From Ilex aquifolium (Eukaryota > Streptophyta > Magnoliopsida > Aquifoliales > Aquifoliaceae): DNA of 64,000 nt. The stretch's first letter is position 1, and the number at the start of each line of letters is the position of its first letter. The notes below the pieces were generated by a model that ran no database searches, was not told the DNA's origin, and saw only the letters and a program-made list of their open reading frames with translations. Shown here one piece after another: positions 3,588-51,718 of the stretch. The stretch is from contig OX637403.1 of assembly GCA_951799425.1 (NCBI GenBank), positions 32,776,811-32,840,810 on the forward strand, read 5' to 3'. Position numbers and translations under genes: made by a program.

Positions 3588-3722
3588 CTAGGGGTAACCT
3601 GTACCTGAAAGCACAGTACAATATGAATGGTTTTGAGAGGGATGTTGGTAGCTGTTGAATGAGTCTATTTAAGACTGTCGAATGAGTTTATTGAAGTCTA
3701 TCATGTTTTATATTATAGATTA
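3588..3722 (-). mobile_element. Helitron-like 3' end, copy 1 of a dispersed repeat
   Basis: Read on the minus strand, this block ends GGTTACCCCTAG followed by T. That fits the Helitron 3' signature CTRR before a T target, with an imperfect palindrome (GTAC...GTAC) about ten bases upstream. The adjoining 110 bp recur at 43625-43730 and 51589-51718. The other end of the element was not found and no RepHel coding is present, so this is a non-autonomous or truncated copy. Confidence 0.45.
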
Positions 3723-4139
3723 TAGTGTAATATATTAAATCTTATCTCAATTGACCTAATTAATTCTAAATACAGTAAGATTCCAATATGATTGATATAT
3801 TGACAATTATTTGTATTTTATTCAATGATTTATAAATATAATCTTAATCAAGTTAATTTTAAAAAAATTAATTTTCAAACATCACTAAAATATCACTTTC
3901 AATTACAAAATTATAGAAACAAAATTAGAACTTTAATTATTTTTTTTATCCTTTTTCTTGAAGTTAGAACAATAAATATTGGGAACATACAAAATTTTCA
4001 AAAATTGTATAATAGAGTATGAGCGATACAAAAATAAGTCTAATAAATTTGAGGTATTATTTAATTTAGGTACATATATACTAAATATTTATTTATTATT
4101 TTTTGTCTAAAAAATTATTTACGTGCAACGCACATTGTA

Positions 4140-7507: not shown

Positions 7508-8167
7508 TAGGGGTGACAATTTTTGACACGACACGATAACTCGACACGAACACGATACGAATAAATGGGTTTGGGTTGACTATTTTTTTGTACAAACCCG
7601 TGTATGACACGACCCGTCAACACGAAGTGTTAATGGGTCGTGTTCGGGTTCAAACTGCTTAACCCAAATTGACCTGTCAACACGAAGTTTTTAACTCGAA
7701 TGAGATTGACCTGACCTTTTCGTTGCATGTATGAGTTTTCATGTTCTGATGGCTTATTTTTTCCATTACTTCTGATATTTAATTTGATTGCGCGATGTAC
7801 AATTAGTATATTTAATTAGTATTATAGAAATAAAATATTAATTATTTGTAACTGTTTATCAAATACTGACATAATTATTATATAAAAAAGATATTATTAC
7901 TTATTATTATTATTATTAAGTTAATTTTTAGTTTGTAGAAAAAGTATGAGGAGAGATTCAATTAATAAAATATTAGCGTTAAATTTTTTATTCAAAGTTT
8001 ATGTGGGTCAACACGAATAAGAACACAAACACGACACGAAAATAAATAGGTCAACTCTACACGACACAATTAGTTAAATGGGTTGGATTAGGGTTGACTA
8101 ATATTCGACACGACTAATATTCGATACGACACGAACCCGATACAACACTACTCGATTGCCACCCCTA
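7508..8167. mobile_element. hAT MITE family A, copy 1 (660 bp)
   Basis: Begins TAGGGGTGACAAT and ends, read inverted, TAGGGGTGGCAAT, Ac-like hAT termini. It is flanked by a perfect 8-bp duplication CCTATACT at 7500-7507 and 8168-8175. Both subterminal regions are packed with ACACGAC and GACACGA words in opposite senses, the layout of transposase-binding repeats, around an AT-rich core without coding capacity. A sister copy lies at 27139-27794 in the same orientation. Confidence 0.88.
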
Positions 8168-12304: not shown

Positions 12305-14706
12305 ATGGTGGTTCTAAGCTTCCAAGCAGTCCACTACCCAGCTCTGAATTACTGTTGTTTACAAAGACGAAGAATTGGCGGTAACATTATCCGGTGTGGA
12401 ATTGCTGAGCCATCAGGAGAGCCGGCGCCTTTTGGGCAGAAGACAAAGTACAATGATGGGTTATTTGAGAAGGCATTCATGACTCTGTTTTCTCGTAAGA
12501 TGGAGAAATTTTCGGCTAATTCCAATAAAGCAGCTGGGGCAGAAGTCAATAAGAAGAAAGGTTTGTTTGATTACGATTATGAGAGCTTTGTGGACGTGTC
12601 AAAGAGAGTAATGCAAGGAAGGTCTCGTGTGCAGCAGCAGCAAGTGGTTCGAGAGGTGCTCTTGTCTATGCTGCCTCCTGGTGCCCCTGCTCAGGTAGAT
12701 CTTCTTCACCTCTCTCTATGTTTTTAATTTTTATTTGTTGTTAGATACTACCTTATTGTACCCTTCGTTCAAAAAAAACGAAAAAGGGAAAGACAAATTT
12801 CAATATGTTATGCTGGCTATGGGGTTCGAACCCATGCGCACTAGTGTGCAGAAGATCTTAAGTCTTCCCCCTTAACCTCTCGGGCAAACCAGCTCTTTCT
12901 TTGTGTTTCCGTTGAAACTGTTAATAGAATGTTATTTGGGTGCATTTTGGCCAATGTACCTCACATACTGCTTCTCAAATTCTGGTGCTGGGGTCTAACT
13001 TTTGCTTTCTTCATTGCCCTTAACTAACTCTGGATTAAAATATCAGGATTTAGTGAAAAATAGCCTAAAGATAAGCTTATACATTTCAATTGTTGTTGCA
13101 GTTTAGGAAGTTGTTTCCTCCCACAAAGTGGGCTGCTGAATTTAATGCTGCATTGACAGTGCCTTTCTTCCACTGGTTAGTTGGACCTTCAGAGGTACAG
13201 ATATATATCTCATGTTTAGCCCATTGTCTTCAATATATCTATGCCTTGCTATTTAGGAAGTGGGTGCAGGCAGTGTCACAAAACTTTCAGTTTGCACAGT
13301 TATACTAACTAATGTGCATCCAGTAGGTAGTGGAAGTAGAGCTAAATGGGGTGAAGCAAAGAAGTGGAGTCCACATAAAGAAATGCAGGTAAAGTTTGTT
13401 CTTGATCACTTCAAATTCAACCCAAAAATGGAATAACTGGCTTTGTGTGCACTATGATATCATTATGTGAAACAAACGGGAAACATAAACAGATGTAAGA
13501 TTTAACGATGGATATATCTATCTAATAACGTACAATACAATTTAAATCTAAAAAATAAATAAAATGATTTTTACTTTTCACAATTGAGATCTCTTTAAAT
13601 TTTATTTTAAAGTTAATTCGACGGCTATATTAACACTTCAAATTTACCACCACCCCCACCACCACCATCACCACTGTCGCCACCCCACTAACACCACCAC
13701 TACCATCGCCACCGCCACCCTACCACCACCACCACCACCACCGTCACCACCCCACCACCACCACTGCCACAACAACCACTAGTACCGCCACCGCCACCGC
13801 TATTGCTGCCACCCCACCGCCCTGTCATCACCATCACCATCCCCATTACCACCACCCCCAGCCCTAGCGCCTCCGCCACCACCACCACCATCGTCACTGT
13901 CCCACCATCACCCCAACATCCCCCCCACAACCATCACCACTACCACCATCACCACCACTGTCACCTTACCACCACCATCGCCGCCACCCTACCACCACCG
14001 TCACCGTCCCACCATCACTCCTAGCACCACCATCCCCATCGCCACCACTCCATCACAACAACCAATGCCACTACCCCACCCCCATTGCACCACCACCATA
14101 GCCACTCACGACCGATTGTTACCACTGTTGTCTACCGTCACTATCCACCATCATCGTCATCTCATTCTTATATTTATTCTCACTACCACCATCGTCCACC
14201 GTTAGCACCCACCACCACCCGTCATTGCCCACCACTGTCACCCACCCTTCACCATCACCACCACTGCCAACCACCATCAACGTAGCCCAACACCACCCAT
14301 ACCCACCACCACTACCGCTGCCAACCACTATCACCGTAGCCCAACACTACCCATACCCACCACCACTACCGCTGCCAACCACCATTACCGTCGCCCACCA
14401 CCACTCATACCTACCACCACTACCGTCATCACCCATGACTGTCACTACTACCATCGTCACCCAAAACCCACCACCACCATCATCATTGTCACCCACGACT
14501 GCCTCCATCACCACGGTCGTCACCACCCACCACAACCACCACCGTCTCCCACCACCACTACCACCGTTCACCGCCACTACAACCGGTGCTTAAATTCTTT
14601 TGTCTCTCCTCTATGTTTGTGATTTGATTTTGGGTGTGAATACAAAAATATTTATTGTTGATCACTTTTTTTATTACTCCGTATCTTCAGACACGGACAA
14701 TAACTA

Positions 14707-15457: not shown

Positions 15458-15856
15458 TGTTAGGTCCCGATCAAAGCTCAGTCACAATAGCTTATGGAAA
15501 TTTGTATTCCCTTCGGGTGAGAATGTACCACAATAGTTGGAATAACTTTTTGCTGCTTTTATTCATAGTTTCTAGCTTCTTAAATAGGCTAAAGCCTAAC
15601 AAAGGGAAAGCAACAGAATGTAAAACAGACTCCTAAACTAGCTCTAACAGCTAGTTGACTGGGCAAGCTGTTTCTGACTAATTAAACAAATAATAAAAAA
15701 CAACAGAATGTAAAACAGACTCCTAAACTAGCTCTAACAGCTAGTTGACTGGGCAAATTGCATTTAGCTCCTTCAGTCCTTTAGTCCCTCTGCAATCTTC
15801 ATCCCTGATACTTGGGGTTCGGTTTTGTCCTCCTGCCCGATCTACACGGCTTATCA
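15458..15856 (-). repeat. 3' LTR of the Ty3/gypsy element
   Basis: 399-bp direct repeat of 20279-20677. It contains an internal tandem duplication of about 60 bp (AACAGAATGTAAAACAGACT...) that is also in the other LTR, so the duplication predates insertion. Confidence 0.95.
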
Positions 15857-18800
15857 ATACTTCCCCCATCAAGTGGATCCTTGTCCTCAAGGTCCACGCT
15901 TGGAAACCTTTCCAGCAGCATCTTTGTCGACTCCCATGTTGCCTCCTCGAGCGGTAGATGCTTCCATTGCACCAAACTTTCCTCAATGAGTTAGGCTCCT
16001 TATTTAATCCAGCGATTGTCTAGAATAGCCTGAGGTTCCAAAACAATTACCCCATCGTCTGTGAATGGTGGCAATTATGCATTTCATGCCTTAGCATTTC
16101 CTCCCTGACATTCATATCGCTTAAGCAACGACGCATGGAAAACTAGGTGGATGCGCGCCCCCTCCGGTAAATGTAACTTGTAGGGAACGGGGCTAATTTT
16201 TTCCAGAATTTGGTAGGGCCCATAGAAACGGCTAGCCAATTTCGGGTGGACTCGTTTGAAGGTTGTTTGCTAACGGTATGGGTGGAGCTTCAAAAGGACC
16301 ATGTCGCCAATGTTGAATGACATATCCCTCCGATTTTGATCCACCAATTGCTTCATCCGATTGACTGATTTTTCCAGATTGGCTTTGAGTTGTTGAAGCA
16401 GTTTATCTCGGGTCAAGAGGTGTTGGTTAACTTCGTGTACTGGTGATAGGCCATCGTGATATAATGGAATGGAAGGTGGGAGTCGACCATAAAGTGCCTG
16501 GAAGGGGGTCATCCCTGTGGAAATATGGTACGTTGTGTTGTACCAGTATTCAGCCCAAGGCAAGTAGCAACTCCATTTGCTCGGCCACTGGTTGACGAAG
16601 CACCGAAAGATACTGTTCGACACAACGGTTGACGACTTCTGTCTATCCGTCAGTCTACGGGTGGTAGGCAGAGCTGAGCTGTAGTTGGGTGCCTGACATC
16701 TTGAAAAATTCTTGCCAGATTTTGCTGATGAAGATCGGGTCTCGGTCGCTAACAATGGACTTGGGCATCCCGTGGAGTTTGATGATCCCTTCCACAAACT
16801 TTTCAGCCACAGTCTTAGCAGTAAAGGGATGGGTTAAAGTAAGAAAGTGAGCTAACTTACTCAACCTGTCTACGACCATCAGGATGGTATCCTTGCTATA
16901 TGAGGTTGGTAATTCCTCAATGAAGTCCATGGTGATGTCGTCCCATACTTGACATGGAATTGGCAATGGTTGTAGGAGCCCTGCTGGAGTTAAAGTTTCT
17001 GCCTTTGCCTTTTGATAAACCTCGCACCCTTTGACATATTCTTGGACAGCTTTGTGCATCGCAGGCCAATAAAATTGCTGGCCCAATTTCTTAAGTGTGC
17101 GTAACACTCCTGAGTGGCCGCCCACTTTGGTGTCATGCATTTCATGTAGCAACTTGGCCCGTAATGATGTACTGGCAGGTATGATGACCCTGCCTTTGTA
17201 GAGAAGTAGCCCATTACGCCACGCATATGGCCCTTCGGGTTGGTCCGCTGCCCCACGACCCCTTGACTGGATATATGGGTCCTCCTTTGTAGCATGTTTG
17301 ATCTCTTCCCATAAATTGATATGTGGAATAAAAATATGGTGAAGAATGGGACTACCTTGCTTTCATGAGAGAGCATCGGCTGCAGAGTTTTCACAGCCCC
17401 GCCGGTATATGATCTCGTAGTCATAGCCTAAAAGCTTGGTTACCCATTTTTGTTGCTCTGATATGGCCACTCGTTGCTCCAAAAAATACTTGAGGCTACG
17501 CTGATCGGTTTGGATATAAAATTTTCTACCTAGTAGATAAGGCTGCCATAAGCGTATTGCCTCCACGATAGCTAACATCTCCTTGGCGTATGTAGACCAA
17601 GATTTCTTGGCCACTCCAAGGGCCCGACTCATGAACGCCACTGGTTTGCCTTGTTGAGACAACACCGCACCAATTCCTTCCCCAGATGCATCTGTTTCAA
17701 TAGTAAAAAAATCGTTGAAATTTGGCATTGCCAAGGTGGGCGTGGTTGTCATGGCTTGCTTGAGAGCTAGGAAGGTCGTCTCAGCTTCATCATGCCATCT
17801 GAATTGGCCTTTCTTGAGAAGGTTGGTGAGGGCCGAGCTATAAAGCCATAATTTTGGATAAACTTCCTGTAACAGCCTGTCAATCCTAAAAATCCACGTA
17901 GCTCAGAAATGTTAGTAGGCTATGGCCATGCTACTATGGCTGCAATTTTGCTATCGTCCATCTTTACTCCTTTATTAGTAACAATGTGTCCCAAGTACTC
18001 CAATTCTTGTTGTCCAATGGCACATTTGCTAGTCTTGACAAAGAATTGGTGTTGCCGTAATATCTCCAAAGTCTGTCTGACATGCGTCAAATGCTCGTCC
18101 CAAGTGGGACTATAAACTAATATGTCATCAAAGAAAACTATTATAAATTTTCTAAGATGATGGCGGAATATGGTGTTCATGATGGCTTGAAATGTAGACG
18201 GTGCATTATAGAGGCCAAATGGCATAACCAGGTATTCATAATGTCTGTTGTGCATGCGGAATGCAGTTTTAGGATATCAGGAGGATTTACTCTCACCTGA
18301 TGATACCCGACTCTCAAATCCAACTTTGGTAAAGTAAGAAGCATCGTAGAGCTCGTCGAGCATATCATCAGCCGTGGGGATCGGAAAGTGGTCCTTGATG
18401 GTGGCAGCGTTGAGTGCGCAGTAGTTCGTGCAAAAACGCCAATTCTCATCCTTCTTCTTCACTAATAGTACCGGTGATGAGAAAGGACTAGTGCTGAGTC
18501 GAATGAGTCCGGAGTTTAGCATATCTTGGACCTGTTTTTCAATCTCCACCTTCTGATAGTATGCATATCGGTACGGTCGGACATTAATTGGCTCAGTTCT
18601 TTCCCTAATGGAAATGCAGTGATCAACCTCCCTGGTAGGTGGCAGGCTCGAAGGCTCCTTGAACACGGCAGAGAACTCCTACAATAACTTATGCATGCTA
18701 GGATGTATGTTTTCTTGTGTCTCCGTCTCGGTGGCCTATAGGTACACTACAAATATTATATGGCCTTGGCGAGCTTCTTTGGTCAGCTCCTTGAGTGACG

Positions 18801-20278
18801 CAACTTGGATAGTTTGGCCATCAACCCCTTGTAATCGTCGGGCCTGGTTCTCCCACAAAAATTCCATAGTTAACTGTTTCCAGTTGCAAACCACGAAACC
18901 TAGCATCTCGAGCCATTGGATTCCCAAAACTAGGTCCAATCCTGTAAGCGGAAAAGCATAAAGAGTTAGGAAGAAGGCAGTGCCTTGTAAGTCCACCCGT
19001 ACCTCCTCAAACCGCCCTTGGCACTTTAGTTTCTCCCCATTAGCTATACGAACAGTGAAAGCCTTGGTCGGCACTGCTTGTAATCGCAGCATGTTGGCCA
19101 CACGCTCATTAATAAAATTGTAAGTTGACCCACTGTCGATCAAGACGATGACGTCATGGGAACCGATCTTGGCAGCTACACGCATGGCCTTGGGCGCAGT
19201 CTATCCTGTTAACGCATGCAGAGTAATTTCTGGTTCGGGCAACTCTTCCTGGTCCTCCTTGGTGGGTTGCTCTTCAGTAACAGCTTCATAGATAATGTTA
19301 CCGCCGCTAGCGTGTCCTTCCAGCAGGAGTAACTGTGGCCCTTGGCATCGGTGGCCTACAGTAAAACGCTCATTACAGTGGAAACATAGGCCTTGAGCTC
19401 GCCTCCGTTGCATTTCATCCCAGGTCAGTCGTCGAACAGGAGCTGCAGAGGCAACTGGTGTTGTTTGAACTGTCGGAGGAAGAGCTAGAGGGGATCTTAC
19501 AGGTAGTGGAGGACGTACAAACCTCCTCTGTCTTGATAGTTGGTCATCCTTCATTCACGCTAGGCTTATAGCGTCCTTCAATGTTTGGGGCTTAAACATT
19601 CGAATGCCATCTGAAATTTCCGTCTTTAGGCCACCCATAAAAGTCCCAACCAGAGCCTTTTAAGTCCATCCCCGTACTCGATTGTCCAGACGTTCGAACT
19701 CTCGCTGGTAATCACGCAGAAAGCCCGTCTGCCTGATTCTTGAAAGAGCTTCATCAAAGTCTTCGCACTCTGAAGGCCCAAAGCGAGCCCAGAGTTCGTC
19801 TTCAAAATTCTCCCACAAGAGAGTGCGTCCTTCTTCTCGAAATGTTCTGCGGATCCACTGCCACCACTGGTTGGCCTCTCATTCCAAGTGGTAAGAGGCC
19901 ATGGAAACCTTCTGGGCTTCGGCAGTACCTTGGTAATCAAAAAATTGATTCACACGATTGAACCACTCCGTTGGGTCGTCTCCGGAGAACCGGGGAAACT
20001 CAAGCCTTGCCGTTTTGGAGGAGAAGGCCTGTCGTTCTCCTTCGTTTTGCCCCTTGAAATGGCTATGTCCTTCTCGGTTATGATCATCGTGGCTTAAGGA
20101 CTCTCTATTCGTGAGCAAGATATTAGAGAAGCGGTTAAGAGTTTCCTCCAAGTGATGAAGCTTGTCTGTCATGCCGAGCTCCATCCGCTGTAACCCATCC
20201 TGAACTGCACCAAGCCCTGTCTCCAAATTCTCAATTCGCTCCTTGTTGGTTCCCATTCTGGCCTGACTCTGATACCAA

Positions 20279-20677
20279 TGTTAGGTCCCGATCAAAGCTC
20301 AGTCACAATAGTTTATGGAAATTTGTATTCCCTTCGGGTGAGAATGTACCACAATAGTTGGAATAACTTTTTGCTGCTTTTTTTCAGAGTTTCTGGCTTC
20401 TTAAATAGGCTAAAGCCTAACAAAGGGAAAGCAACAGAATGTAAAACAGACTCCTAAACTAGCTCTAACAGCTAGTTGACTGGGCAAGCTGCTTCTGACT
20501 AATTAAACAAATAATGGAAAACAACAGAATGTAAAACAGACTCCTAAACTAGCTCTAACAGCTAGTTGACTAGGCAAATTGCATTTAGCTCCTTCAGTCC
20601 TTCAGTCCCCCTGCAATCTTCATCCCTGATACTTGGGGTTCGATTTTGTCCTCCTGCCCGATCTACACGGCTTATCA
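20279..20677 (-). repeat. 5' LTR of the Ty3/gypsy element
   Basis: Partner of 15458-15856, bordered inside by the primer-binding site and outside by the TGTAC duplication. It carries the same internal 60-bp tandem duplication. Confidence 0.95.
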
Positions 20678-26639: not shown

Positions 26640-28420
26640 TCAACAACTAATTAGTAAGTATTTGACTTGTGAGTACTTGACTTGTTGACAACATGTTGTT
26701 GGATTAAAACAATTTTACAAAACAGTTTTTTAAGTGTAAAAATTAAATTTTTGGTCAATTTTGAGTCTAAATTAAAATGGGACCCGTTAGTTGTTTCGAG
26801 TAAACTTTCTTGGGTTCGTATTCTACTCTGTGAGGAGAATAATGTAGTATATTCACTTGTTCAAATCGAGTAAGAAATGAATGAGAAAATAGGCTCCAAA
26901 ATGACTCTCTTGAAATGTGAAAATAAAGGTTGTGCAATGTGGGATTTGACATCAATCCCACATTGGTTGAGGAAGAAGTTCTAGATGTGCATATATAGGA
27001 CAAATTTTGTTCAATGAGATTGGGCCCCAAGGGGTACCACAATTTTATGAGCGAAGCGAGCGCTTACATGCCTTTGGTTCTATCACACGTGCGCTGCCCG
27101 CCCACCACGACCCGACCAGGCTCGGGTGTGGGTGTGGGTAGGGGTGACAATTTTTGACACGACATGATAACTTGACACAAAACACGACACGAAATAAATG
27201 GGTTTGAGTTGATTATTTTTTAGTACAAACCCGTGTATGACACGACCCGTCAACACGAAGTGTTAATGGGTCGTGTTCAGGTTCAACTCGAATTGACCCG
27301 TCAACACAAAGTTTTTAACTCGAAGGAAATTGAACTGACCTTTTCGTTGCATGTATGAGTTTTCATGTTCTGATGACTTGTTTTTTCCATTGCTTCTGAT
27401 GTTTAATTTAGTTGCGCAATGTACGATTAGCATATTTAATTAGTATTATAGAAATAAAATATTAATTATTTGTAACTGTTTATCAAACACTGACATAATT
27501 ATTGTATAAAAAAGATATTATTACTCATTATTATTATTATTATTAAGTTAATTTTTAGTTTGTAGAAAAAGTACGAGGAGAGATTCAATTAAGTGAAAAT
27601 AAAATCTTAGCGTTAAATTTTTATTCAAAGTTTATGTGGGTCAACACGAATACGAACACGACACGAAAATAAACAGGTCAACTCGACACGACACGATTAG
27701 TTAAATGTGTTAAGTTAGGGTTGACTAATGTTCGACACGACTAATATTCGACACGACACGAACCCGACACAACACGACCCGATTGCCACCCCTAGGTGTG
27801 GGTGTGGGTGTGGTTTAGATCAAACCCTATCTTTTTTGAGAAAATTCGTTTAATTAATTGGGCGAGAATTTTTGAACCGAAATTAAATTTCGGTACCTGT
27901 TCGCACTGGTTCGGATTTTTTGTTTTCCTTCGGTCCGAAATTTGAGTTGTGTATGTTCATATGAAACAGTTACACAAGTGGTGTCTTCTGGCTGCATGTG
28001 ACTGCTGGGTTGTATCCGTTCAGATGGTGACTGTCCGGATCAGTCACCATTCTCTCTTATAAATAATTCAGTCACATAATCATTTTGCATGTAATTCATC
28101 CAATACACTCTTAGTCATTTAAGGCAGTCTCATACATCATTAAGACAATCTACATTTTGGAGAGTCCACAACACAATTTCTGATTCGCTGGACGAGTAGA
28201 TTGAAGTGCTACTTCTACTCGTGTGAAGATCATTGTATTATGGGAGACAGACGTTTGATATTTCCATAAGCACCGTGTGTGGGGGCGAAATCTGTCTTAA
28301 GGACATAGTGTCAAACACTAGTTTTGATTTACATAAAATTCAATAACAGTTCATATTTTGTAACCGAATTAGTATTTATATTAATTTGACAAATAGTTAC
28401 GTATTACAAGGTTCCGTCAA
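26640..28420 (+). mobile_element. LTR-like remnant (probable solo LTR), approximate ends
   Basis: A non-coding stretch with plant-LTR character: the word TGGGATTTGACATCAATCCC near 26940, a TATA-like CTTATAAATAATTCAG near 28055, a following leader-like segment, and a GGGGGCGAAATCTGTC end-like region near 28290. No partner LTR or gag-pol was found, and no 5-bp duplication was fixed, so ends are uncertain. A family A hAT MITE is nested inside at 27139-27794. Confidence 0.3.
27139..27794. mobile_element. hAT MITE family A, copy 2 (656 bp)
   Basis: Same termini (TAGGGGTGACAAT and inverse TAGGGGTGGCAAT) and interior as 7508-8167. A perfect 8-bp duplication GGTGTGGG lies at 27131-27138 and 27795-27802. 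The two copies are in the same orientation and clearly alignable throughout with scattered substitutions and small indels. The insertion split a (GGTGTG)n tract of an LTR-like remnant, so it is younger than that remnant. Confidence 0.88.
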
Positions 28421-29329: not shown

Positions 29330-29960
29330 ATTGTTGTAACTTTTTCTTGTCATTGCACGGTGCGACTGTCAAGTGTAATACTTTGATTTAATACTATAGG
29401 TCATTGGTTTATCTGTTTTGTGTCCCTATATGATGTATACCTCATTGGTGTAATGTCTTGAGTCACCCAATTTGGTGTGTATAATTGATGTAACCACGTG
29501 GTGATACTGAATAGTGTAACTCTTTCGTCTAATTATACAATTGAATGATACAATGGATTGGTTAGTGTAACTATTTTTAGAACATATGAATAACTATTTA
29601 GTGTATTATAGAGCAATTGTAACTAGTTGGTGTCTCATAATTGGTGTAACTGCCTGGTCAAACTGTCTTTAGAACATATGAATAAATTATTGGTGTATCA
29701 TAGGGCAATTGTAATTGGTTGGTATCGTATAATTTCAGTAACTGTTTAGTGTAACTTTTTTCATAACACATGAATAACTATTTGTTATATCATAAGACAA
29801 TTCTAACTGATTGATGTCTCATTATTGATGTAACTGTTTGGTCTAATTATTTTCAGAACACATGAATAAATTATTGGTGTATCATAAGACAATTGTAACT
29901 TGTAAGTGTTGTAAATAATCAGTAACTGTTTAGTGTAACTATTTTAGACCACATCAACGA
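29330..29960 (+). repeat. Degenerate tandem array of 92-102-bp units
   Basis: Units starting near 29581, 29673, 29765 and 29867 each contain AACAYATGAATAA, then a TATCATAAGACAATTGTAACT-like segment and GTGTAACT. Alternate units resemble each other more (ATAACTATTT versus ATAAATTATT), suggesting a two-unit period of about 190 bp. The array forms the left subterminal arm of the element above. Confidence 0.6.
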
Positions 29961-32603: not shown

Positions 32604-34402
32604 TCAAGTCTGGTTATTGTAGTATTGATGTTCTTTGATTCAAAAAATACAGGACAAAATAGCGGTGATTGTTGGAGACTGACTGATATGTGAGAGAGAA
32701 GTTTTTTTTCTTTCTTTTTGAGGTTTTTGCTCTATGGTTGTAGGACAAGGCACGCCAGCCTCTGGAAAAGTTGCGTTAACGGTCTCTCAGTGGCAAGAGC
32801 TTGAGAGACAGATGATGATTTACAAGTACATGATGGCCTCTATCCCTATTCCTCCTGAACTTCTCTTGCCCATCACCAGAAATCCCTCACATGTTCCTTT
32901 CTCCCAATCTAACAGTAAAAACTCTCTTTGCTTTGTGGTTAATACTTTCCCTGTAGTTAAACTTAATCACCACTTCCGTTTCTATTGCTTGATAGTTGTT
33001 CCTTTCTCTCCCTATACTCTAATATACACACCATAAGTAAGCTTTGCTTTCAATAAATCTATTGTTGATCTGTTCAAACGCTAATATAAAATAGTATGTT
33101 ATGACATATAGTGTAAACTGTTAATCTCTTCCTTTTCCTTATGAGCAAAAAATGTGATTTTGGTGTTTGTAGTCTCTGGTTTGGATTTGAGGTTCTCAAG
33201 TGGCTCGGATCCAGAGCCATGGAGGTGTAGAAGGACAGATGGAAAGAAATGGCGGTGCTCGAGGGACGTGGCGCCTGAGCAGAAGTACTGTGAGCGGCAT
33301 GCCCACAAAAGCCGGCCCCGTTCAAGAAAGCCTGTGGAAATTCAATCCCACACCACCACCAACACCAAAATTGACAATCACCGCCCATTGATCCTTCCAA
33401 GTAATACTGCTACCACCCAGCCATTTCAAAAGCCTATTCCCCACTTCCCAACTTTGGGGTCTCCTACAACTACCTCACATGATCTTCCCAGGTGGGTTGG
33501 CTGCTCCAAGCTTTCTCTCTGAATCTTAGGACCAAAATGGTTATTTTACCTTGTGTGATATTGTTTTGGTAGTTGTTACATTCATTTTCTTGTTCTTATC
33601 CACAACTATGATTTAGGTCTGTCTAACCCTGTCTTTTGTTTTGTGTAAATAAATGTGGTTATTGTGTGTGTACTGAAGGGGCATTGAATGGTTCTTGAAA
33701 GGTGGCACTGGCACCATCCCTGTCTCTACTTGTGACCAACAATGGCAGCAACTGATGCAACCATCATCGGGAGTGGGATTAAAGAGAGACCACACAAACC
33801 AGATTAAAGATGTGCATGTTTTAAATCAACATTGCGAGGGACAGGAAGAACCCACGAACTTGAATCCGTACGCTGATGGTGGTAGTGGTAGTGGCCAGAG
33901 ATTGAAACATCAACTGCTCAGTGACCAGTGTGGCTCGTTACTTAACCCCAAACTTGCTAATCTCCAAGGAAATGACACAACACAAAAAACAAGGCATTTC
34001 ATTGATACATGGTCAACGGCAGAGAGTGAATGTTTCGACGAAAACAGAGGGAAGTGGTCTTTGTATTCCAGTAGGAAGCCGCCACTCTCGTCCCTTACAC
34101 TCTCAATGTCTCATGGGAATGGGACTGATGAAGATTATGAACATGGCCAAATGGGCCTGGGGATTTTGGATTCAGAAAGAGATGGTGGGATTTTGAAAAC
34201 CCAGTGGCTGAACCCTGCTTCATGGACAGGTTCACCACCTGGTGGACCATTAGGTGAAGCCTTGTGTCTTAGCATCGCCAGTACTGCAAAAGTGACTTCT
34301 AATGTGCCATCCCCTCAAGGCTATAGCAACAGCAATACCACCAGCAGCTGCAGCAAAAGCTCTTGCGAGGATGGCAGCCATGCTCATAATTTCATTGGGT
34401 GA
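32205..34402 (+). CDS. GRF: Growth-regulating factor (QLQ-WRC transcription factor)
   Basis: Four exons: 32205-32559, 32744-32914, 33173-33491, 33679-34402; GT-AG borders and phases agree, giving 522 residues. The QLQ domain (about residues 124-160) reads [20 protein letters not shown] and IPIPPELL; it binds GIF co-activators. The WRC domain (about 186-230) reads [19 protein letters not shown] then [16 protein letters not shown], with the C3H zinc ligands and nuclear signal. The C-terminal part includes [10 protein letters not shown], typical of the GRF7/GRF8-like group. GRFs drive cell proliferation in young organs. An miR396 site lies in the WRC exon. The start at 32205 (MGNGDR) is preferred over an in-frame Met at 32082. 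Intron 1 opens with a long CT run (about 32571-32602). Confidence 0.93.
33319..33339 (+). promoter_or_regulatory. miR396 target site in GRF mRNA
   Basis: Core TTCAAGAAAGCCTGTGGAA within the codons for [10 protein letters not shown] after the WRC motif, where nearly all plant GRFs carry the miR396 site. The one-base bulge usual for GRF targets (the extra C after AAAGC) is present. miR396 cleavage or repression is therefore expected. Confidence 0.88.
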
Positions 34403-35392
34403 GAGAATTGTTGCGCTCCAAGCAGATTGCATCTCCATGTTTGAACCAAGAGCTAAGCAAAAAAGTACTACAAGGTCCCATTTGTTTTTGTTCCTTTGGC
34501 TCATTGGCTACCTATAGTGCTTTCCTTTGTTATTGTTTTCCCTTCAGCTACCCTCCTGGCAGTGGTTTGTTTGTGCATATGTTTTTGATTTTGCGTATGA
34601 ATTCTGTCTTTATTTGGGGGGCTTCATCACGAACTCATGAAGAAATTAATCATATCAACAGGAACTTCTGCCTCACTGGAATCCTACTTGCATTGAATAT
34701 TACTATTGGGACTTCATTTTTGATCTGATGATGACAAAGTTGACAGAATGGGGATAGCATTTTGCGGAATTTTATTTTTCATAGTAATTATTAGAGTTCG
34801 TCCATGTGGTCCGAGTACCGCGATGGTAATAATCACTTATTTTTAGCATATAGATAATTTATTTATGATAATAATAGAATAAAATGTTGATAAACTTAAC
34901 AAATTGTGAAATAAGATACAACATGTTTAGATTTGGCCCTCTGAAAAAAATTCAAGACTAGAAAACTCCAATTTGGATGTAAATGGAATTCAGATCAGAA
35001 TGCAATGTGTTTTACTGGCTGTCCTGTCCGCCACAAAATTTTTTATCCGGTAGCATAGTCTTCCCTTCCCTCAAAAAAAGAAAAAAAAAAAAAAAAAAGG
35101 CTCTTCTTTACTGCTACTGTACCTTTCAAATTAAATTAAATTAAATTAAATTTTGAGCGGTAAAATTTCCTGTTCATCCACCACATTTGAAAATTGAATG
35201 AATAGTGTTCTACACCTACACTACATGGCTGCATTTATTAAACTCAGACTAATACAATTTCTTTCTTTCTTTTAAAGTTGTCTCCTGCATCGAAGCCTTT
35301 GTCTTCTTTCTACATACACTTCACAACACTCTCCCTCTCCCTCTCCCTCTCCCTCTCCATCTGTTTTGCTGCTCTCTTCAAATTTGCTGAAC
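34403..35392. other. GRF 3' flank and promoter of the glutaredoxin gene
   Basis: Contains a run of A at about 35080-35097, four to five ATTAA units near 35127-35152, and a pyrimidine tract of CTCCCT units (35330-35360) just before the next start codon, likely in its 5' UTR. No other gene seen. Confidence 0.5.
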
Positions 35393-36376
35393 ATGGGTTG
35401 TGTTTCATCGACTCTGCTCAACCACGACGACGATTTCAGCCAAATCGGAGGCTCAGCAGCACTGGGTCACCATATTGTCTCTCTCACCTCCACAACTTAT
35501 GGCCTCTTGACCCTCGACCCACCCTCCTCCTCTGATCATTCACCCACCACCGTCCCTCCAACTCCTCCTCCTCGATTCACCCTCGGCTCACTCTTCCCTA
35601 CCCCACTCTCCCATCCCACAACCCTGCGTTCCGAAACACCCGAGATCATCAACTCTTGGGAACTCATGGCTGGTCTTGATCCCGTCAATGACAGCTTCCG
35701 ATTCTCTCCCCTACCTTCCAAACCATTCCCATATAGAGACATCAACAAAGAAAACTCAAACCCTAATATGTCTGCCCGTACGCTAAATAAATCTAGCATT
35801 TTCAACCCATCAAACGACGACATAATTTCAACAAAATCCTGTGTTTTAAAGTATTCTCTAGATGGGTATGAAAAGCTATGTCCCCCAAATGGTGAAAACA
35901 AGGTCGTGATCTATACCACGACTTTGAGGGGAGTACGGAAGACTTTCGAGACTTGCAATGCTGTCCGAGCAGCGATTGAAGGACTTGGCGTTTCAATTTG
36001 CGAGCGAGATATTTCAATGGATAGAGGGTTTAGGGAAGAGTTGAGAGAGATAATGAAGGGGAAAGAAAACGGAGAATTGGTGCCGCCCAGAGTGTTTGTC
36101 AAAGGAAGGTATATTGGTGGAGCTGAAGAGGTTATGAGGATAGTGGAAGAGGGGGGTTTGAAAGATTTGCTAGAGGGACTGCCTAAATTGAAGGCAGGGT
36201 ATGTGTGTGAGGGTTGTGGGGGTGTGAGGTTTTTGCCTTGTTTTCAGTGTAATGGAAGTTGTAAGAGGGTGATGGTGGTGAAGGAAGAGTTGGGACAAAA
36301 GCAAGGGAGGACTGTTGTCGTGAGGTGCTCTGATTGTAATGAGAATGGCCTGGTGCTCTGCCCCATTTGTAGCTGA
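35393..36376 (+). CDS. Glutaredoxin-domain, zinc-binding, N-myristoylated protein
   Basis: Single exon, 327 residues. Start set at MGCVSS, a textbook N-myristoylation motif with a neighbouring cysteine for palmitoylation, suggesting membrane attachment; an in-frame Met nine codons upstream would hide it. An N-terminal low-complexity Ser/Pro-rich region is followed by the motif EIINSWELMAGL. The glutaredoxin fold covers about residues 165-265: VVIYTTTLRGVRKTFETCNA, in which the usual redox CxxC is replaced, then RVFVKGRYIGGAEEV with the glutathione-site pattern. The end has four CxxC pairs (CEGC, CFQC, CSDC, CPIC), probably zinc-binding. Similar plant proteins are annotated glutaredoxin family proteins without known targets. 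Catalytic activity is doubtful because of the missing CxxC; a binding or regulatory role is an inference. Confidence 0.88.
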   Translation: MGCVSSTLLNHDDDFSQIGGSAALGHHIVSLTSTTYGLLTLDPPSSSDHSPTTVPPTPPPRFTLGSLFPTPLSHPTTLRSETPEIINSWELMAGLDPVNDSFRFSPLPSKPFPYRDINKENSNPNMSARTLNKSSIFNPSNDDIISTKSCVLKYSLDGYEKLCPPNGENKVVIYTTTLRGVRKTFETCNAVRAAIEGLGVSICERDISMDRGFREELREIMKGKENGELVPPRVFVKGRYIGGAEEVMRIVEEGGLKDLLEGLPKLKAGYVCEGCGGVRFLPCFQCNGSCKRVMVVKEELGQKQGRTVVVRCSDCNENGLVLCPICS

Positions 36377-40305: not shown

Positions 40306-40378
40306 TAACAAAATTCTACGCGTTTAAATTTATTAAAGACGGAGAGAGAAGTAAATAAGATTTGCAACTGATGATACC

Positions 40379-41170
40379 AAAAATTAGTCAAGGCTAAGCT
40401 CTACCCAGTAACAGATTGGAGGTTGACCCTCAATAAGGGCTTACGATATAATGTCAGAATTTAGGTTCTAGTCGAAATAGCTAAGGTCGGGTGAATGAGC
40501 GGACCTGTCAATCCTTAGCTTCTCGGGTGGTCATCCTAGATTAGAAATCCCAGCTCAGACACCTCAGCTCAGATATCATCACTTAGACGTCTTAGGTCAG
40601 ACTTTATAGCTCAGGCCTTTCAACTTGAGACTTCTAGTTTGGGAGGCACAAGTCGGGAGTCGTCACCAACGTGACACCCTCATGTGCACTACGACAATGA
40701 CAACTCATACCTTCTAGAGGGACACGTCATACCTGTGGAATATAGTCTCTAACGACCAAACATTTCATGACATAGGTAGTAACAATCCCAAGAGAATCAC
40801 GTTGATCATGCATGGATCGCGACAGTTACTCAAGGATCGCAATGGTTACACGAGGCTATAACATACTATAAATGGGAATCAAATCCCTCACATTGTAATA
40901 GATCAAGCAACCGTGCATTGATTCCTTGTAATTCTTTAGCCTTCTTCTCCAAAAAATAGAAAATTCTCCCAGGACCAAGAAACTCTGTTAGAGTAGACTT
41001 GCTAAACTTTTGAGTTAGTGAACCATTATAAATCTCTCATCTATTAATTTCTATTCATAGCTATCATTCCTAAATTGATTGTTCAACCACCAAGGGCTTA
41101 GAAGCTCTGACTGGATATTCCAGTGAATTCTATCAACATATCCTCAATCTATTAATCTCTACTCAACCGT
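40379..41170 (+). mobile_element. Probable solo LTR, ends approximate
   Basis: Starts TGATGATACC and contains an LTR-like promoter (ACTATAAATGGGAATCAAAT near 40870) followed by a leader-like segment (CTTGTAATTCTTTAGCC). Upstream are several CAGCTCAGA-type short repeats (about 40550-40610). No flanking duplication or second copy is visible, so the assignment is inference from character. Confidence 0.35.
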
Positions 41171-43624: not shown

Positions 43625-43730
43625 CAATGTAAATGGTTTTGAGAGGAATATTGATGGCTGCTGGATGAGTTTATTTGAGACTGTCAGATGAATTTATTGA
43701 AGTCTGTGATGTTTTATATTATAGATTATA
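43625..43730 (-). repeat. Copy 2 of the dispersed Helitron-like repeat
   Basis: Shares the roughly 105-bp block AAATGGTTTTGAGAGG...ATTATAGATTATA with 3588-3722 and 51589-51718, in the same orientation, but lacks the hairpin and CTAG end. It is a truncated copy. Confidence 0.5.
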
Positions 43731-45735: not shown

Positions 45736-47322
45736 TTACTTTTTTGCCGACAAGTGGCTCAAGGGGTCAGAAGATGATGATGATGATCGAGCGAAGCTCC
45801 ACAGATCATCTATGTCACTGCTGCTATAGACTTGAGAGACTTGTTGTGGTGTGCTGAAACGTAGATCATGCGGTGATTGTGCTTCATGATGTAGAGGAAG
45901 ACACAAGGCCTCGTCGTTGGGGTGACCAGTACCACCATAGAAGGAGAAGGGCATGAGATGCTTGGATGTCTCCTCTTGGCGGCCACTGAACTGCGAAGAA
46001 GCCACGAGATGATCAAGTACAACCCAGTTACAAAACCCATCATCTTTTGGACCATCAACCACCATGTCCATTTTGTTGCAAGCATTATGTCCTTGCTTAT
46101 TAGTGCAGGAGGAGGGTGATTCAGTTTCTTCCATCGTCATATTATAATCGATCGGCTGCCCACAAAGTTCAAAACTGCAATCCTGATGGAAGCTGGTTAA
46201 GCTGCTGTTATTATTAATATTGTTGGGATTGGGAAGTGACTTAATGGTCGTCAGACTCTCTAGTCTTGGAAGATGGAGAAATCTAGCTTGAACTGATCCG
46301 TCGCTGATAGCTGTGTTGATTGGGTTGACAAAGTCCATGATCTTGTTCTCGCTGACTGTCTCATGTTCTTTTGCGCCAGAGCCAGACCTTCCCATGTACT
46401 GAAATATCTCATCTATAATAAAGCCATCGTTGCTCGGGTACTTATGCATCTGCGTCCTTGAATCCCTATCGAAGGCGGCGGATGAGCTTTGGGGGGGAGT
46501 GGGACCCTCTAAGGATCTGTGATAGTTTTTCTTTTTGAAAACACGGCAGACAACCCAGCCATCTTCTGGCGTGGAGGTGGAGGTGGAGCTGCAGGAGTAC
46601 TCCCCCAACACATTAGGAACCTAAATTTATATGCCATTAATCGCATCCATCCATCAGTATCAAACTATGATCAGTAACTTGATACAAAAAAGCAGCACTA
46701 AATTTACGACAGAAAGAATAGTAAGAGTCAGTACAGGAGGATAGAAAAGAGAGAGGAGTATATATATATGGCTCTGGCTTACACTGGCTTCATGAGTGTT
46801 GTTATCGTCTAGCCTATACTCATGCATGATCCAATCGGACTTGAGGCCATGAGGTGCCCTTCCTTTGTAGAATACAAGAGTTTTCCTCATTCCGATTCGT
46901 CTAAGGTTGCTGTATATGACCTTATCGCGACCTGTGGCCTTCCAGAATCCAGCGGCAGTCGCACGATTTGTTCGAGTCCCTGTCGGGTATTTCTTGTCTT
47001 TGTGACTGAAGAAATACCAATCATTTTGTGGTGTTGATCCTATTTTGCACTTCTCTAAAAAAACCATGAAAGACAAAGTAAGCATACTACTTAAAGCTAC
47101 ATTATCTGTCAAACTATAGAAGGAATACAAGACTTTACCTTGAATATCCCATGGTTCGAGCTTATTCAGATCGACATCGCGAATCACGTTGAGATCTATC
47201 TTCTGAAAAGTCACTTTCTTCCTCAAGTAGTAGTGAAGAAGCTCCTCTTCTGTCGGGTGGAATCTAAAACCTGGAGGAACCTGAGACTGACCATTTACAG
47301 ATAGATTCATATCTTCTGACAT
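45736..47322 (-). CDS. NAC transcription factor, NST/SND1 secondary-wall clade
   Basis: Three exons on the minus strand: 47322-47139, 47054-46783, 46620-45736, with GT-AG borders and agreeing phase; 446 residues. The NAC domain (about residues 12-188) shows subdomain [21 protein letters not shown], then [75 protein letters not shown] and [14 protein letters not shown]. The short N-terminal [10 protein letters not shown] and these words match Arabidopsis NST1/NST2/SND1 better than other NACs. The C-terminus is a Ser-rich activation-type tail ending in a DDLWSF motif, as in this clade. These factors switch on cellulose, xylan and lignin programmes in fibres (family knowledge). Start chosen at MSEDMNL; 47391 and 47310 are alternatives. 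The promoter is duplicated around an LTR fragment. Confidence 0.92.
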
Positions 47323-47403
47323 TGGGCAGTAGAAATCAAGAGTCAAGTGAAGTGCCTGTTTCTTCGTTGCATTGTCCTCAAATCTTCCCACAAACTAAAC
47401 TCG

Positions 47404-47731
47404 GATTGGTCCAATTTTAAGAATACAGGATATGAACAACTAAGAGAGCAGCAGCCGGGGTGGACAAAGATGGGAGTGAGGATTAAAACAAGAGAGATGC
47501 TGTGCGTAAAAAGGCCAGGAGACATGATTATTTATAGAGTAATGCTGTTATTTAAATCTAAAAATTTGATATAATTTTTAATTTAATTATATATGTTTTT
47601 TTTATAATCATGGAATTAACAAGAAGTTGTATGATCGGTAGGATTTAAAGGGTTCATATGTGCATTGGAATTTTTGACATCATGGCCATTATTGTACTTG
47701 ACAGGGGGGTCTAGGCTTCCAGAAGAACAAA
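47404..47731 (-). repeat. Proximal copy of duplicated NAC promoter segment
   Basis: 328-bp direct repeat of 48350-48677, offset 946 bp, with about three differences by eye. It starts 82 bp upstream of the NAC start codon and includes the likely TATA box. The exact junctions are GATTGGTCC on one side and AAGAACAAA on the other. Confidence 0.93.
47529..47537 (-). promoter_or_regulatory. Likely TATA box of the NAC gene
   Basis: CTATAAATA on the minus strand, about 207 bp upstream of the chosen start codon, leaving a plausible 5' UTR of about 180 nt. The same element recurs at 48475-48483 in the distal copy. Confidence 0.5.
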
Positions 47732-47784
47732 AAATTAGTATAAAATTAGTACAATAATGGCCATGATGTTAGACGGCGCCAAAC

Positions 47785-48349
47785 TGATGATGCAAAAAAT
47801 TAGTTTGCACACCACAGTCAAGTAATAGTATAAAATGCAGTAAAATAAGTAGGAGAAAGACAAGAACAACACAAGGATTATAGTGGTTCGGTCAACAAGA
47901 CCTACGTCCACTTTCAATGGCTAAGTTCGCCGGAAAGTTTATTAACTCAGGTGTGTAAGGAGATCCGGGAATTACAAGAGAGAGATAAGCTTTGGGTTTT
48001 CGTGAGATGCCCCCCAAGTGTTGGGGGAGCTTACAATTTATAGTGGCATGTGCAGTAATTGAGTAGGTAGTCCGACAGTCATAACGGACTTGGGATAACT
48101 CAATAGTATTTAAATAGCTTGATGACCTCTCCTCTCCTTGGCGACCTGTCCTCTCCTTGGCGACCTCTCCTCTCCTCAATGGGCAAAGAAGTTATGATGC
48201 TCTCCAAGTGGTGTGGGTGAGGCTCCGGAATGCTCCTTTGTGACATAGTCTTTCAATGGGTTTGACTGGTTGGACCTCATTGGGTATGTTGGATCTTCTC
48301 TAAGCTTGGACTTTACCCAAGGATTGAGCCATTTGGGCCTGGCCCATCA
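47785..48349 (-). mobile_element. LTR fragment with primer-site-like border, upstream of the NAC gene
   Basis: A fossil LTR of about 565 bp that begins TGATGGGCC and ends ATCATCA in minus-strand sense. It is followed after three bases by TGGCGCCGTC (47781-47772), which resembles the tRNA-Asp-type primer site of some plant Ty3/gypsy elements. A TATA-like ACTATAAATTG lies near 48047-48037. No gag-pol and no second LTR are present. Three 20-bp CCTCTCCTTGGCGA-type units are tandem at about 48124-48176. It is oriented in the same direction as the NAC gene. Confidence 0.6.
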
Positions 48350-48677
48350 GATTGGTCCAATTTTAAGAATACAGGATATAAACAACTAAGAGAGCAGCAG
48401 CCGGGGTGGACAAAGATGGGAGTGAGGATAAAAACAAGAGAGATGCTGTGCGTAAAAAGGCCAGGAGACATGATTATTTATAGAGTAATGCTGTTATTTA
48501 AATCTAAAAATTTGATATAATTTTTAATTTAATTATATATGTTTTTTTTATAATCATGGAATTAACAAGAAGTTGTATGATCGGTAGGATTTAAAGGGTT
48601 CATATGTGCATTGGAATTTTTGACATCATGGCCATTATTGTACTTCACAGGGGGGTCTAGGCTTCCAGAAGAACAAA
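48350..48677 (-). repeat. Distal copy of duplicated NAC promoter segment
   Basis: Partner of 47404-47731 with about 99% identity by eye. Beyond it, sequence continues as single-copy upstream DNA, so either copy could be ancestral. It carries a second TATA-like box. Confidence 0.93.
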
Positions 48678-48781
48678 CCACCTCAACCTAGCTAGCGACA
48701 GAAACGGTAGAGAAGTATGTGGTAGGTACCACAAAGAGTTAACCACAAAGAGTTAGAATAGTGTGGGTCCCAAAGGCCTTA

Positions 48782-49163
48782 GAGTATCTCCCATAGGTTC
48801 TATAATTCTATCCATTTTTTATTACAAGGAATCAATTTTTAAATTTTTTTTTCTGATAGACATTTTATTTAGACTCACTAAAATAAAGAGATCAATTTGA
48901 TTATCTACGGTTTGAGAGTTAAACTCACTCTCTATTTTATTTTTATTTTCATCCAAGACATTTAAGATAAATGTATTTCATTTAAAATAATATAGAAAAA
49001 ATATGAGATAAGCCAAATTTATTGACAAAAAAGACAACATAAAATGATAGAATAGAGAATCATATTGAAATAGTGTGTAAAAATTAATTATCTATTGTAA
49101 CCTTTTAATAAAGATGCTCTCTATTTTAAAGAGAATATTGTGAGAATATTGTTGGAAATGTTA
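48782..49163. mobile_element. Tourist/Harbinger-like MITE remnant
   Basis: TTA flanks both sides (48779-48781 and 49164-49166). The left end GAGTATCTCC and right end, read inverted, TAACATTTCC form a weak inverted repeat of the GAGCATCTCC type. The interior shares GAGAGTTAAACTC and AAAGATGCTCTCTA-like words with 38102-38804. It is old and diverged. Confidence 0.45.
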
Positions 49164-49166
49164 TTA

Positions 49167-51588
49167 CAGTCAAGTCAAGATATTCTCCTATCCTTCTCTC
49201 TTATGACTAAATGGCGGGTACGCTTGCGTCTAAAACTATGACTCTGGACCTTAAAATCTGTAAGAAAAGCACCCCTGAAACCACCACTATCATCAAGGAA
49301 TCTCTCTCTCTCTCTCTTTGAATTTACTTGTGCAACCACCTCCAACGAGAAGGGGGCAAGAGGGAGATGATGGGGTCGGAGACATTGCGCTTTCATTGGG
49401 AGGAAATGGCATGATGAGTTTAACAGAGACTTGTGGAGTTTTTGTATCTGCCTACTTCCAATTACTTTTGCTCACGACCATTGTACCCCCAACTATAGCC
49501 CACCAATCATGGCTCCTTGACATGGTATAAAACTTAATTCTCGATCTATATGGTGATATCTCTGAATCAAATAGTACTACAAAAGACTACAAGTTACTCA
49601 CTCTAACAATATATAATTACCGGTAACAAACAATTTCTACGTAGAAACCTAGATAGAAATATTATTGTCATTTCTATTTAAATTGGGATAGGAGGAACCT
49701 TTAAAGGGTGTTATGTTTGGGTACACATACATCCTCTGCACTAGGATTGAACTTTGACTGGTTTATGTTAATACTTGCTAGCTAGTGTCTAATTCTGGTG
49801 GTTGGGGCTATTTTCACCTTCCCAATATCTATTCTTACCCTATTTAATTTTTTATTATTAAACTACTAAGTTCATTCCTTTTATACACACCCTATTAATG
49901 ACTAAGTCCACCCCATGCTATATACACCCATTTAATAAGTAAATCTATCTTATATCTTCTCACAATTAGAGTTTCATTTATTTTTCTATTTCATACACTC
50001 ACAAAAACACTTTTTTAATATGAATTTTTCTAATGAGATACAAATTAGTATTATTTATCGATTTAGTTATATGTTTGATTTTATGTGTGGTGTGGTGTGG
50101 ATTTTTATTATTTTTATTGTGTTTTGGTATATCTGTCAAGTTTAATAATTTTAGATTTAGGGTTTATTTGTGTGTGTATTCAAATTGTTTTTAAAAAGGG
50201 GCAATAAAGATTATTTCAATAGAAAACTTGTTTCGTTTGATAAGCTTATGTCGTTTGTGAATTATCCTTTGTGATATAGCCTTTGTAAATTAGAAAGCTT
50301 GTTTCATTTTTTATTTTTCTGGCGACAAATTTCTTCTTTTGTTTTTTGATTTTGTCCTTTCTTATTTTCTTTTGGGTTTTGATAAATTTTTCTCTTATTT
50401 TCTTTTTTATTTTATTTTCTTACTTATTAAAAGAGCGTATATAGGATGAGGTTAACTTAGTTACTAATATGATGTATATAAAAATAATGAACTTAATAGT
50501 TTGATAATAAAAAATTAAATAAAATGGGAATGAATATTTTTAAGGTGGGAATAGCATCACCCAATCCTGGTTTCACGTGGGTTGGTATACTCTTATTCAT
50601 GTAGTTATAAATTAAAGCATATTGGTTGTGTTTTTCAGTTGAGTAATACTATTTGAATCTAAAAATTTGACATAATTTACTAACATAATGATGTGGTTTC
50701 AGTAAAATTATTGAGTTAGTATCAAGTTCTAATGTTTGATTGGTCCCACAGTCAATCTAAAGATTATAGTGAATTAGGTCAGTAAACCATTTTTTTAACT
50801 CCTGCACTCACTAACGACAAACATTCCTGCCTATATATATATATACCATGTACTTTAGCCCACTGCCAACATGTTAGTGCTTATTATTGTTCTCTCTCTC
50901 TCATATTCAACTATAACAATATCATAACATTTATTCCGTTATGAGATCACTCTGTCTCAACTCTAATCATGACCGTTATTCTTCAAAATTCTACTCTTAA
51001 TGATGATTGTAGCCCACAATTGACGAGGCAACCACTTTTCTTACTAACCAGCACTGAATTACACTGATCATCTCCACATGATCCCCTCTCTTGTTGTTGC
51101 CTTGAGTTAGTTTATTGTGTATGTATTCTGTGCTTACCATTAATTGTTTATTCAAACACCTACAACGACCATGCCTCCGTATTCACCGTGGTCATGACGT
51201 GTTGTGACGACTTAATCATCATGTACACCATAGATAGAGATAGAAACAGAGAGAGAGAGAGAGAGTATGTACCATAATTCATACTGTTAATGTATGATGG
51301 CGATATTAGAAGTTTGCATGAGAAGCAATTAAACTTGGGAGGCAATGCTATTTATTCTCAACCTGAAGTCGTCGTCTCCTCACGTAATATTGGTTGCTCA
51401 ATATGCATGCAACCATACTTGATTGATGCCACCACCTAGATATTAATATTATAGTCGAGGTCCGCATTATTGGCCTGAATATTTCTGACCATCAAACTAA
51501 AAAAAAAAGTTAGGTTGCTGATGTTTGACATATTATCCACCAAACAATACAATTTTAAAATGGTTAGAATTTGGGTTTATATATATAA
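49167..51588. other. Intergenic, no gene
   Basis: AT-rich with CT/GA microsatellites (49302-49318, 51248-51266). The TAATACTATTTGAATCTAAA word near 50644 resembles one in the duplicated NAC promoter and may mark a small dispersed repeat. A 70-codon frame at 49318 has no recognisable domain. Confidence 0.45.
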
Positions 51589-51718
51589 GGGGTAATTCGT
51601 GCATAAAGCACGGTGCAATATAAATAGTTTTTAAAGGGATGTTGGTGGCCGTTAGATGAGTCTATTTGAGACCCTTGGATGAGTTTATTGAAGTCTGCTC
51701 TGTTTTATATTATAGATG
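51589..51718 (-). mobile_element. Helitron-like 3' end, copy 3 of the dispersed repeat
   Basis: Same block as 3588-3722, with a clearer hairpin: CGTGC-ATAAA-GCACG at 51598-51612. In minus sense it is followed after about nine bases by CCCCTTA. The hairpin-then-CTRR-like end supports a Helitron terminus; the CTRR itself is degraded here. Confidence 0.45.

Follow-up and report, generated by a model that had tools for sequence, protein, structure and literature searches.

In patch-mediated tandem duplication, fill-in between nicks on opposite strands yields a direct duplication of the target (Vaughn and Bennetzen 2014 and Schiml 2016, as presented in PMC7971508 and PMC5730883), and in Arabidopsis the capture of T-DNA by polymerase theta leaves templated filler at the 3' end and a clean join at the 5' end (PMC10923293). 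Ty1 cDNA captured at yeast breaks can hold LTR ends together with bases present only in the cDNA (PMC10802722), and grape VvmybA1 carries a 408-bp promoter repeat at a transcription-factor gene, for which an origin from adjacent nicks has also been proposed (PMC7464560). A solo LTR, finally, is one LTR without internal genes. In a 64,000-nt stretch of Ilex aquifolium DNA (the window), the promoter of a NAC-domain gene resembles each of these systems and departs from each. The direct duplication has a similar size to the grape repeat but, at 328 bp, is long for the patch-mediated class, and an LTR with filler separates its copies. What was captured is a retrotransposon LTR rather than T-DNA, and it is accompanied by a long target duplication, with a role for polymerase theta that is here putative. 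Whereas the yeast breaks were induced, this is one natural plant locus with both filler and duplication. The grape repeat, as described in PMC7464560, is tandem, has no insert, occurs in two to five copies and has demonstrated effects on expression and colour. Unlike a solo LTR, the insert has no flanking short duplication and keeps bases that resemble a primer-binding site (PBS). Each step has precedent; combined in one scar at the NAC gene are an LTR with PBS, a clean U3 joint, a theta-type joint on the PBS side and a long target duplication, a combination that we did not find at any one natural plant locus among the papers listed by searches of the open-licence PMC literature.

The locus comprises the following features:

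45736-47322, minus strand: NAC-domain gene, three exons, 446 aa
47404-47731, minus strand: repeat copy 1, which takes in the TATA box (47529-47536), sequence upstream of it and a portion of the presumed NAC 5' leader
47732-47769, no strand: filler, 38 nt, of LTR pieces and an inverted target piece
47770-47772, no strand: three bases, either more element PBS bases or bases added at the join
47773-47781, minus strand: PBS-like TGGCGCCGT, 3 nt (47782-47784) past the LTR end
47785-48349, minus strand: complete-looking LTR, 565 bp, TGATG...CATCA, with 19-bp U3 repeats at 48124-48176, TATAAA at base 308 and AATAAA at base 407
48350-48677, minus strand: repeat copy 2, beginning exactly at the LTR U3 end, with a second TATA box (48475-48482)

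The NAC gene starts with an ATG at 47322 and has exons at 47322-47139, 47054-46783 and 46620-45736; the splice sites were picked by hand, and the reading frame stays open for 446 codons. The protein has a full-length NAM domain (PF02365, 122/122 positions, E 2e-44) and matches four distinct NAC sequences in the PDB. Its start presumably resembles those of NST/SND1 proteins, and from this resemblance and the NAM domain we consider the gene a probable secondary-wall regulator.

The two direct copies, spaced 946 bp apart, differ at three positions (47434 G/A, 47484 T/A and 47700 G/C) and are 99.1% identical, well above chance (E 9e-166 in a self-BLAST of the window). Copy 1 is preceded by CTCG, the right-hand ends of both copies diverge past GAACAAA, and the first base of copy 2 is the next base past the terminal CA of the LTR (48349/48350). 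The repeat surrounds the joint as a direct target repeat of the patch-mediated kind, and the minus-strand TATA box TATAAATA that starts at 47529 recurs at 48475. The Jukes-Cantor (JC) distance between the copies is 0.0092 (3/328 differences), which, with assumed substitution rates of 1.3e-8, 7e-9 and 2.5e-9 and copies taken as identical at birth, would date the duplication to about 0.35, 0.66 or 1.8 million years, respectively, within a range of about 0.07 to 5.3 million years when Poisson limits on three differences are applied. A 29-nt stretch at 50650-50678 is 93% identical to 47549-47577 within the duplicated promoter, and from this likeness a portion of the 328-bp repeat may derive from an older dispersed repeat.

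The interval separating the copies is 618 bp long (47732-48349). Read on the minus strand, the insert starts with TGATGGGCC, continues through the 19-bp repeats, TATAAA and AATAAA to GCATCATCA at base 565, and is followed by GTT, TGGCGCCGT, CTA and the filler; TGATG and CATCA form a 5-bp terminal inverted repeat, and the element PBS-like portion covers about 9-11 bases past the LTR end. The insert is most simply read as one whole LTR with the first PBS bases, lying on the same strand as the NAC gene. As the LTR boundaries were drawn from a single copy, a 583-bp LTR (47767-48349) that ends in TCTAACA, with TG...CA only and without a PBS, could also be proposed. A preliminary description of this DNA had reported a TATA-containing segment of 328 bp repeated at 946 bp with about 99% identity, a second TATA box, and an LTR fragment plus filler pointing the same way as the gene. 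The repeat and its second TATA box agree with the present analysis, as does the LTR direction, to which the order of TATAAA, AATAAA and PBS attests; an LTR and filler do lie within the 618 bp, but the "fragment" is an apparently complete 565-bp LTR with PBS bases. Such a structure points either to an intermediate of reverse transcription or to an element that broke within its PBS, and not to a random LTR piece.

The nine letters of TGGCGCCGT occur once in the window with both strands counted, against about 0.1 expected. We take them to fit tRNA-Asp, which would presumably give T rather than the C found at the tenth PBS base; beyond the same nine letters, the sequence of the Arachis element Athena continues as we take tRNA-Asp to read. 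In Athena, a non-autonomous LTR element, the nine letters lie in conserved sequence that bears no PBS label in the description in PMC5904367, and this was the one plant LTR element noted among the open-licence papers listed for PBS letters, which were judged in part by title. The search of the window for a second LTR copy returned only short matches, and the exact LTR pattern had no match in viral contigs or in genome contigs, nor had the PBS pattern in viral contigs, misses that mean little in collections that are viral and prokaryotic for the LTR pattern and viral for the PBS pattern. The one tRNA detected by a scan of the window (Rfam gathering threshold, ARAGORN) is a tRNA-Leu at 12811-12893, unrelated to the PBS. 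A 21/23 match at 40366-40388 was set aside, with no evident LTR context around it.

A canonical insertion would be flanked by a 4-6 bp target duplication. At the NAC gene, GATTG stands on the U3 side, and PBS and filler stand on the other, so that neither a flanking duplication nor a solo LTR set directly within one is present; the second LTR and internal region of a canonical insertion are likewise absent from the window. The window holds its own positive control for normal insertion, in the form of a Ty3/gypsy-like element with TGTAC on both sides:

15458-20677, minus strand: Ty3/gypsy-like element with 399-bp LTRs (11 differences), a TGGTATCAGAG PBS and flanking TGTAC

Pfam domains in this element are a protease, RNase H and an integrase zinc finger. 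Other repeats in the window are a direct repeat whose copies, about 670 bp long, are 90% identical (7508-8167 and 27139-27794), a tandem array of 92-bp / 184-bp units (29562-29954), and a dispersed short family, 81-86% alike, at 3577-3724, 43625-43730 and 51576-51717, perhaps a SINE or MITE. Distal upstream of the NAC gene lies an inverted repeat with 144-nt arms that are 78% complementary (49799-49942 and 50420-50563), perhaps an old foldback element. On the plus strand are a WRC-domain exon (33160-33348), which we take to be growth-regulating-factor-like (the subgroup being our assumption), and a glutaredoxin-domain gene (35276-36376).

The filler joins the PBS side of the insert to copy 1. 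Exact matches trace its pieces to the LTR, at 47793-47804 (12 nt, of which CAAA is common with the target end) and 47826-47836 (11 nt), and to the target, as an inverted piece of 22 nt whose source is 47677-47698 or the copy at 48623-48644; a 10-nt stretch also recurs within the filler. We compared 47732-47766 (35 nt, with four flanking bases per side) on both strands with the 100 nt beside each joined end, using 3000 dinucleotide shuffles and 3000 window pieces of similar G+C as controls. This revealed that exact matches cover 35 of the 35 bases at lengths of 8 and 9 nt and 34 at 10 and 11 nt, coverage that none of the shuffles and none of the window pieces reached at any length from 8 to 11. 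The complete coverage at 9 nt (0/3000 shuffles) is templating from near ends as expected of polymerase theta. The AT-rich start of the filler (47732-47749, 18 nt, the last bases being part of the 22-nt piece) is weaker than the whole: its coverage of 18/18 was reached at 8 nt by 25/3000 shuffles and 2/3000 pieces and at 9 nt by 2/3000 shuffles and 0/3000 pieces, and its coverage of 15/18 was reached at 10 nt by 10/3000 shuffles and 0/3000 pieces and at 11 nt by 0/3000 of either. At the putative template switches within the filler we read overlaps of 3-5 nt (CAAA and TAGT among them), without a control of their own, and none is evident at the joint of filler and PBS. The theta footprint reported for T-DNA capture in Arabidopsis consists of repeated copying from both ends, with the 3' end richer in filler and cleaner 5' joins (PMC10923293), and from the letters of this joint we infer that polymerase theta is the likely maker of the filler. 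We stop at likely because in yeast short inverted fillers have been put down to fold-back with other polymerases and NHEJ (PMC11724301).

The reading that fits best, to which we give a probability of about one half, is a single break-repair event in which LTR and PBS cDNA was captured, its U3 end joined cleanly and its PBS end by theta-type joining, with fill-in at staggered nicks. The ancestral promoter would have been nicked on both strands at points about 328 bp from each other, and fill-in of the overhangs would have turned the 328-bp segment into two copies. Captured between them would be a retrotransposon cDNA of one complete LTR and the first PBS bases, whose U3 (5') end would have been joined straight to one target end, and whose PBS (3') end would have been joined to the other following several rounds of microhomology-primed copying in the style of polymerase theta, so that LTR pieces together with inverted target pieces would remain as filler. 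The gene-adjacent core promoter would have stayed in place and all sequence further upstream would have shifted by 946 bp. That copy 2 starts at the base past the terminal CA of the LTR argues for a single event. A break followed by patch synthesis and filler capture had been put forward in the preliminary description; it remains the best fit and gains support from a filler made of pieces from both joined ends.

The exact U3 start, with TGATGG at 48349 as the apparent first U3 bases of the single LTR copy, and the end in the PBS give the insert the shape of plus-strand strong-stop DNA (U3-R-U5-PBS), an identity that we infer from that shape. It is weakened by the C at PBS base 10, which is unexpected at an end copied from a tRNA that we presume to be tRNA-Asp. 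The PBS reading further expects family LTRs with a CATCA end followed by GTTTGGCGCCGT. A second point weakens the strong-stop identity, as the truncated retrotransposon insertions reported for Arabidopsis ddm1 lines in PMC10462705 all kept two LTRs. At yeast breaks, cDNA capture is concentrated at the 3' LTR, a hotspot that is inflated because inserts compatible with either LTR were counted as right-LTR inserts, and cDNA-only nucleotides occur in 40/56 such inserts (PMC10802722). Duplications at breaks in rice and mouse cells have been ascribed to fill-in between opposite-strand nicks (PMC7971508, PMC5730883), and fill-in of 3' overhangs by polymerase alpha-primase is an alternative source (PMC8355091). 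Of short insertions in rice, 70% are tandem duplications; by 200 bp the share is down to about 5%, and beyond that length it is flat, which places 328 bp in the tail (PMC7971508).

Alt-EJ factors including polymerase theta are reported at the PBS during second-strand transfer (as reviewed in PMC12786077, PMC12426944 and PMC10671454), and the integrase-free route outlined in PMC12786077 relies on recombination of the Rad52 type rather than on end joining. A more specific proposal, which we hold tentatively and with considerable doubt, is that the scar is a misdirected second-strand transfer, in which single-stranded plus-strand strong-stop cDNA was joined to the broken promoter much as T-DNA is.

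Unequal joining between an empty chromosome and a filled one, which we regard as unlikely, would likewise account for the exact U3 joint, the complete LTR and the filler, and would do so without a 328-nt stagger. A full element would first have inserted normally, with GATTG as target, into one of two homologues or sisters; an empty chromosome, broken so that it ended at 47731, would then have joined or template-switched into the element PBS and copied the LTR and the 328 bp beyond, such that the duplication length is the distance from break to insertion site and the three mismatches could be allelic. Two events are required here, one of them a break that happened to fall no more than about 12 nt from the LTR end. 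Ranked just behind this reading as unlikely is half-site integration: integrase would have linked the U3 end to a single target strand, the other end would have failed to join, and end joining of a broken or incomplete cDNA would have closed the gap 328 bp away. The exact CA-to-target joint at 48349/48350 is what strand transfer produces, but a blunt end-join yields the same letters, and a cDNA end in the PBS needs a separate reason.

Neither a pair of unrelated events nor an artefact fits as well as these two. Solo LTRs and tandem duplications are both common, and TG...CA holds also for 47767-48349, so a solo LTR of 583 bp ending at 47767 might have met an independent 328-bp tandem duplication by chance; we find this hard to credit, as the duplication boundary matches the LTR end to the base, a short target duplication is absent, the filler is copied from both joined ends and PBS-like bases stand at the expected place. 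An assembly artefact or haplotype mixture is the least probable source, being hard to square with three sites that differ between the copies and with a filler of pieces from both joined ends, which assemblers do not make.

The preliminary description also credited the gene with two core promoters and an LTR promoter. As sequence, two TATA boxes and the TATAAA are present; as function the triple-promoter claim is weak, given the upstream ATGs and AATAAA in the longer leaders. If transcription is assumed to start about 31 nt below each TATA box, the predicted leader has 1 upstream ATG when it starts in copy 1, 9 when it starts in the LTR and 15 when it starts in copy 2; the leaders from the LTR and copy 2 also include AATAAA, so these two may yield little NAC protein. 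Since the gene keeps its proximal core promoter and leader, NAC expression may be little changed, and the likeliest effect would be the displacement of distal elements by 946 bp. With the SMRE, M46RE and TERE patterns as commonly given, neither copy holds an SNBE, SMRE, M46RE or TERE site, a weak test at about 0.5 or less expected per motif. One LTR site, at 48062, fits both SMRE and M46RE (0.8 and 0.5 expected), and 48678-50677 contains one SNBE (4.7 expected), two SMRE and two M46RE. The SND1-bound TACNTTNNNNATGA is absent from 47323-50700 with up to one mismatch allowed; this pattern and that of SNBE were checked against PMC3756741. SND1 and its poplar relatives are reported to be able to activate their own promoters, with SNBE copy number of importance (PMC3756741), and an effect on self-activation was proposed for the grape repeat (PMC7464560); self-activation of the grape type has no support here because the motif and TACNTTNNNNATGA searches were empty in the copies.

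For the NAC gene, a probable secondary-wall regulator, the scar amounts to a promoter-structure allele, and a promoter repeat of similar size alters VvmybA1 expression in grape (PMC7464560). If the pattern recurs, inserts of LTR and PBS without short duplications would be countable genome-wide, and a role of alt-EJ in plant retrotransposon cycles would be testable from sequence. If misdirected second-strand transfer is true, plant LTR retrotransposons would be able to seed single promoter-bearing LTRs, and to duplicate promoters, by a route that needs no integrase.
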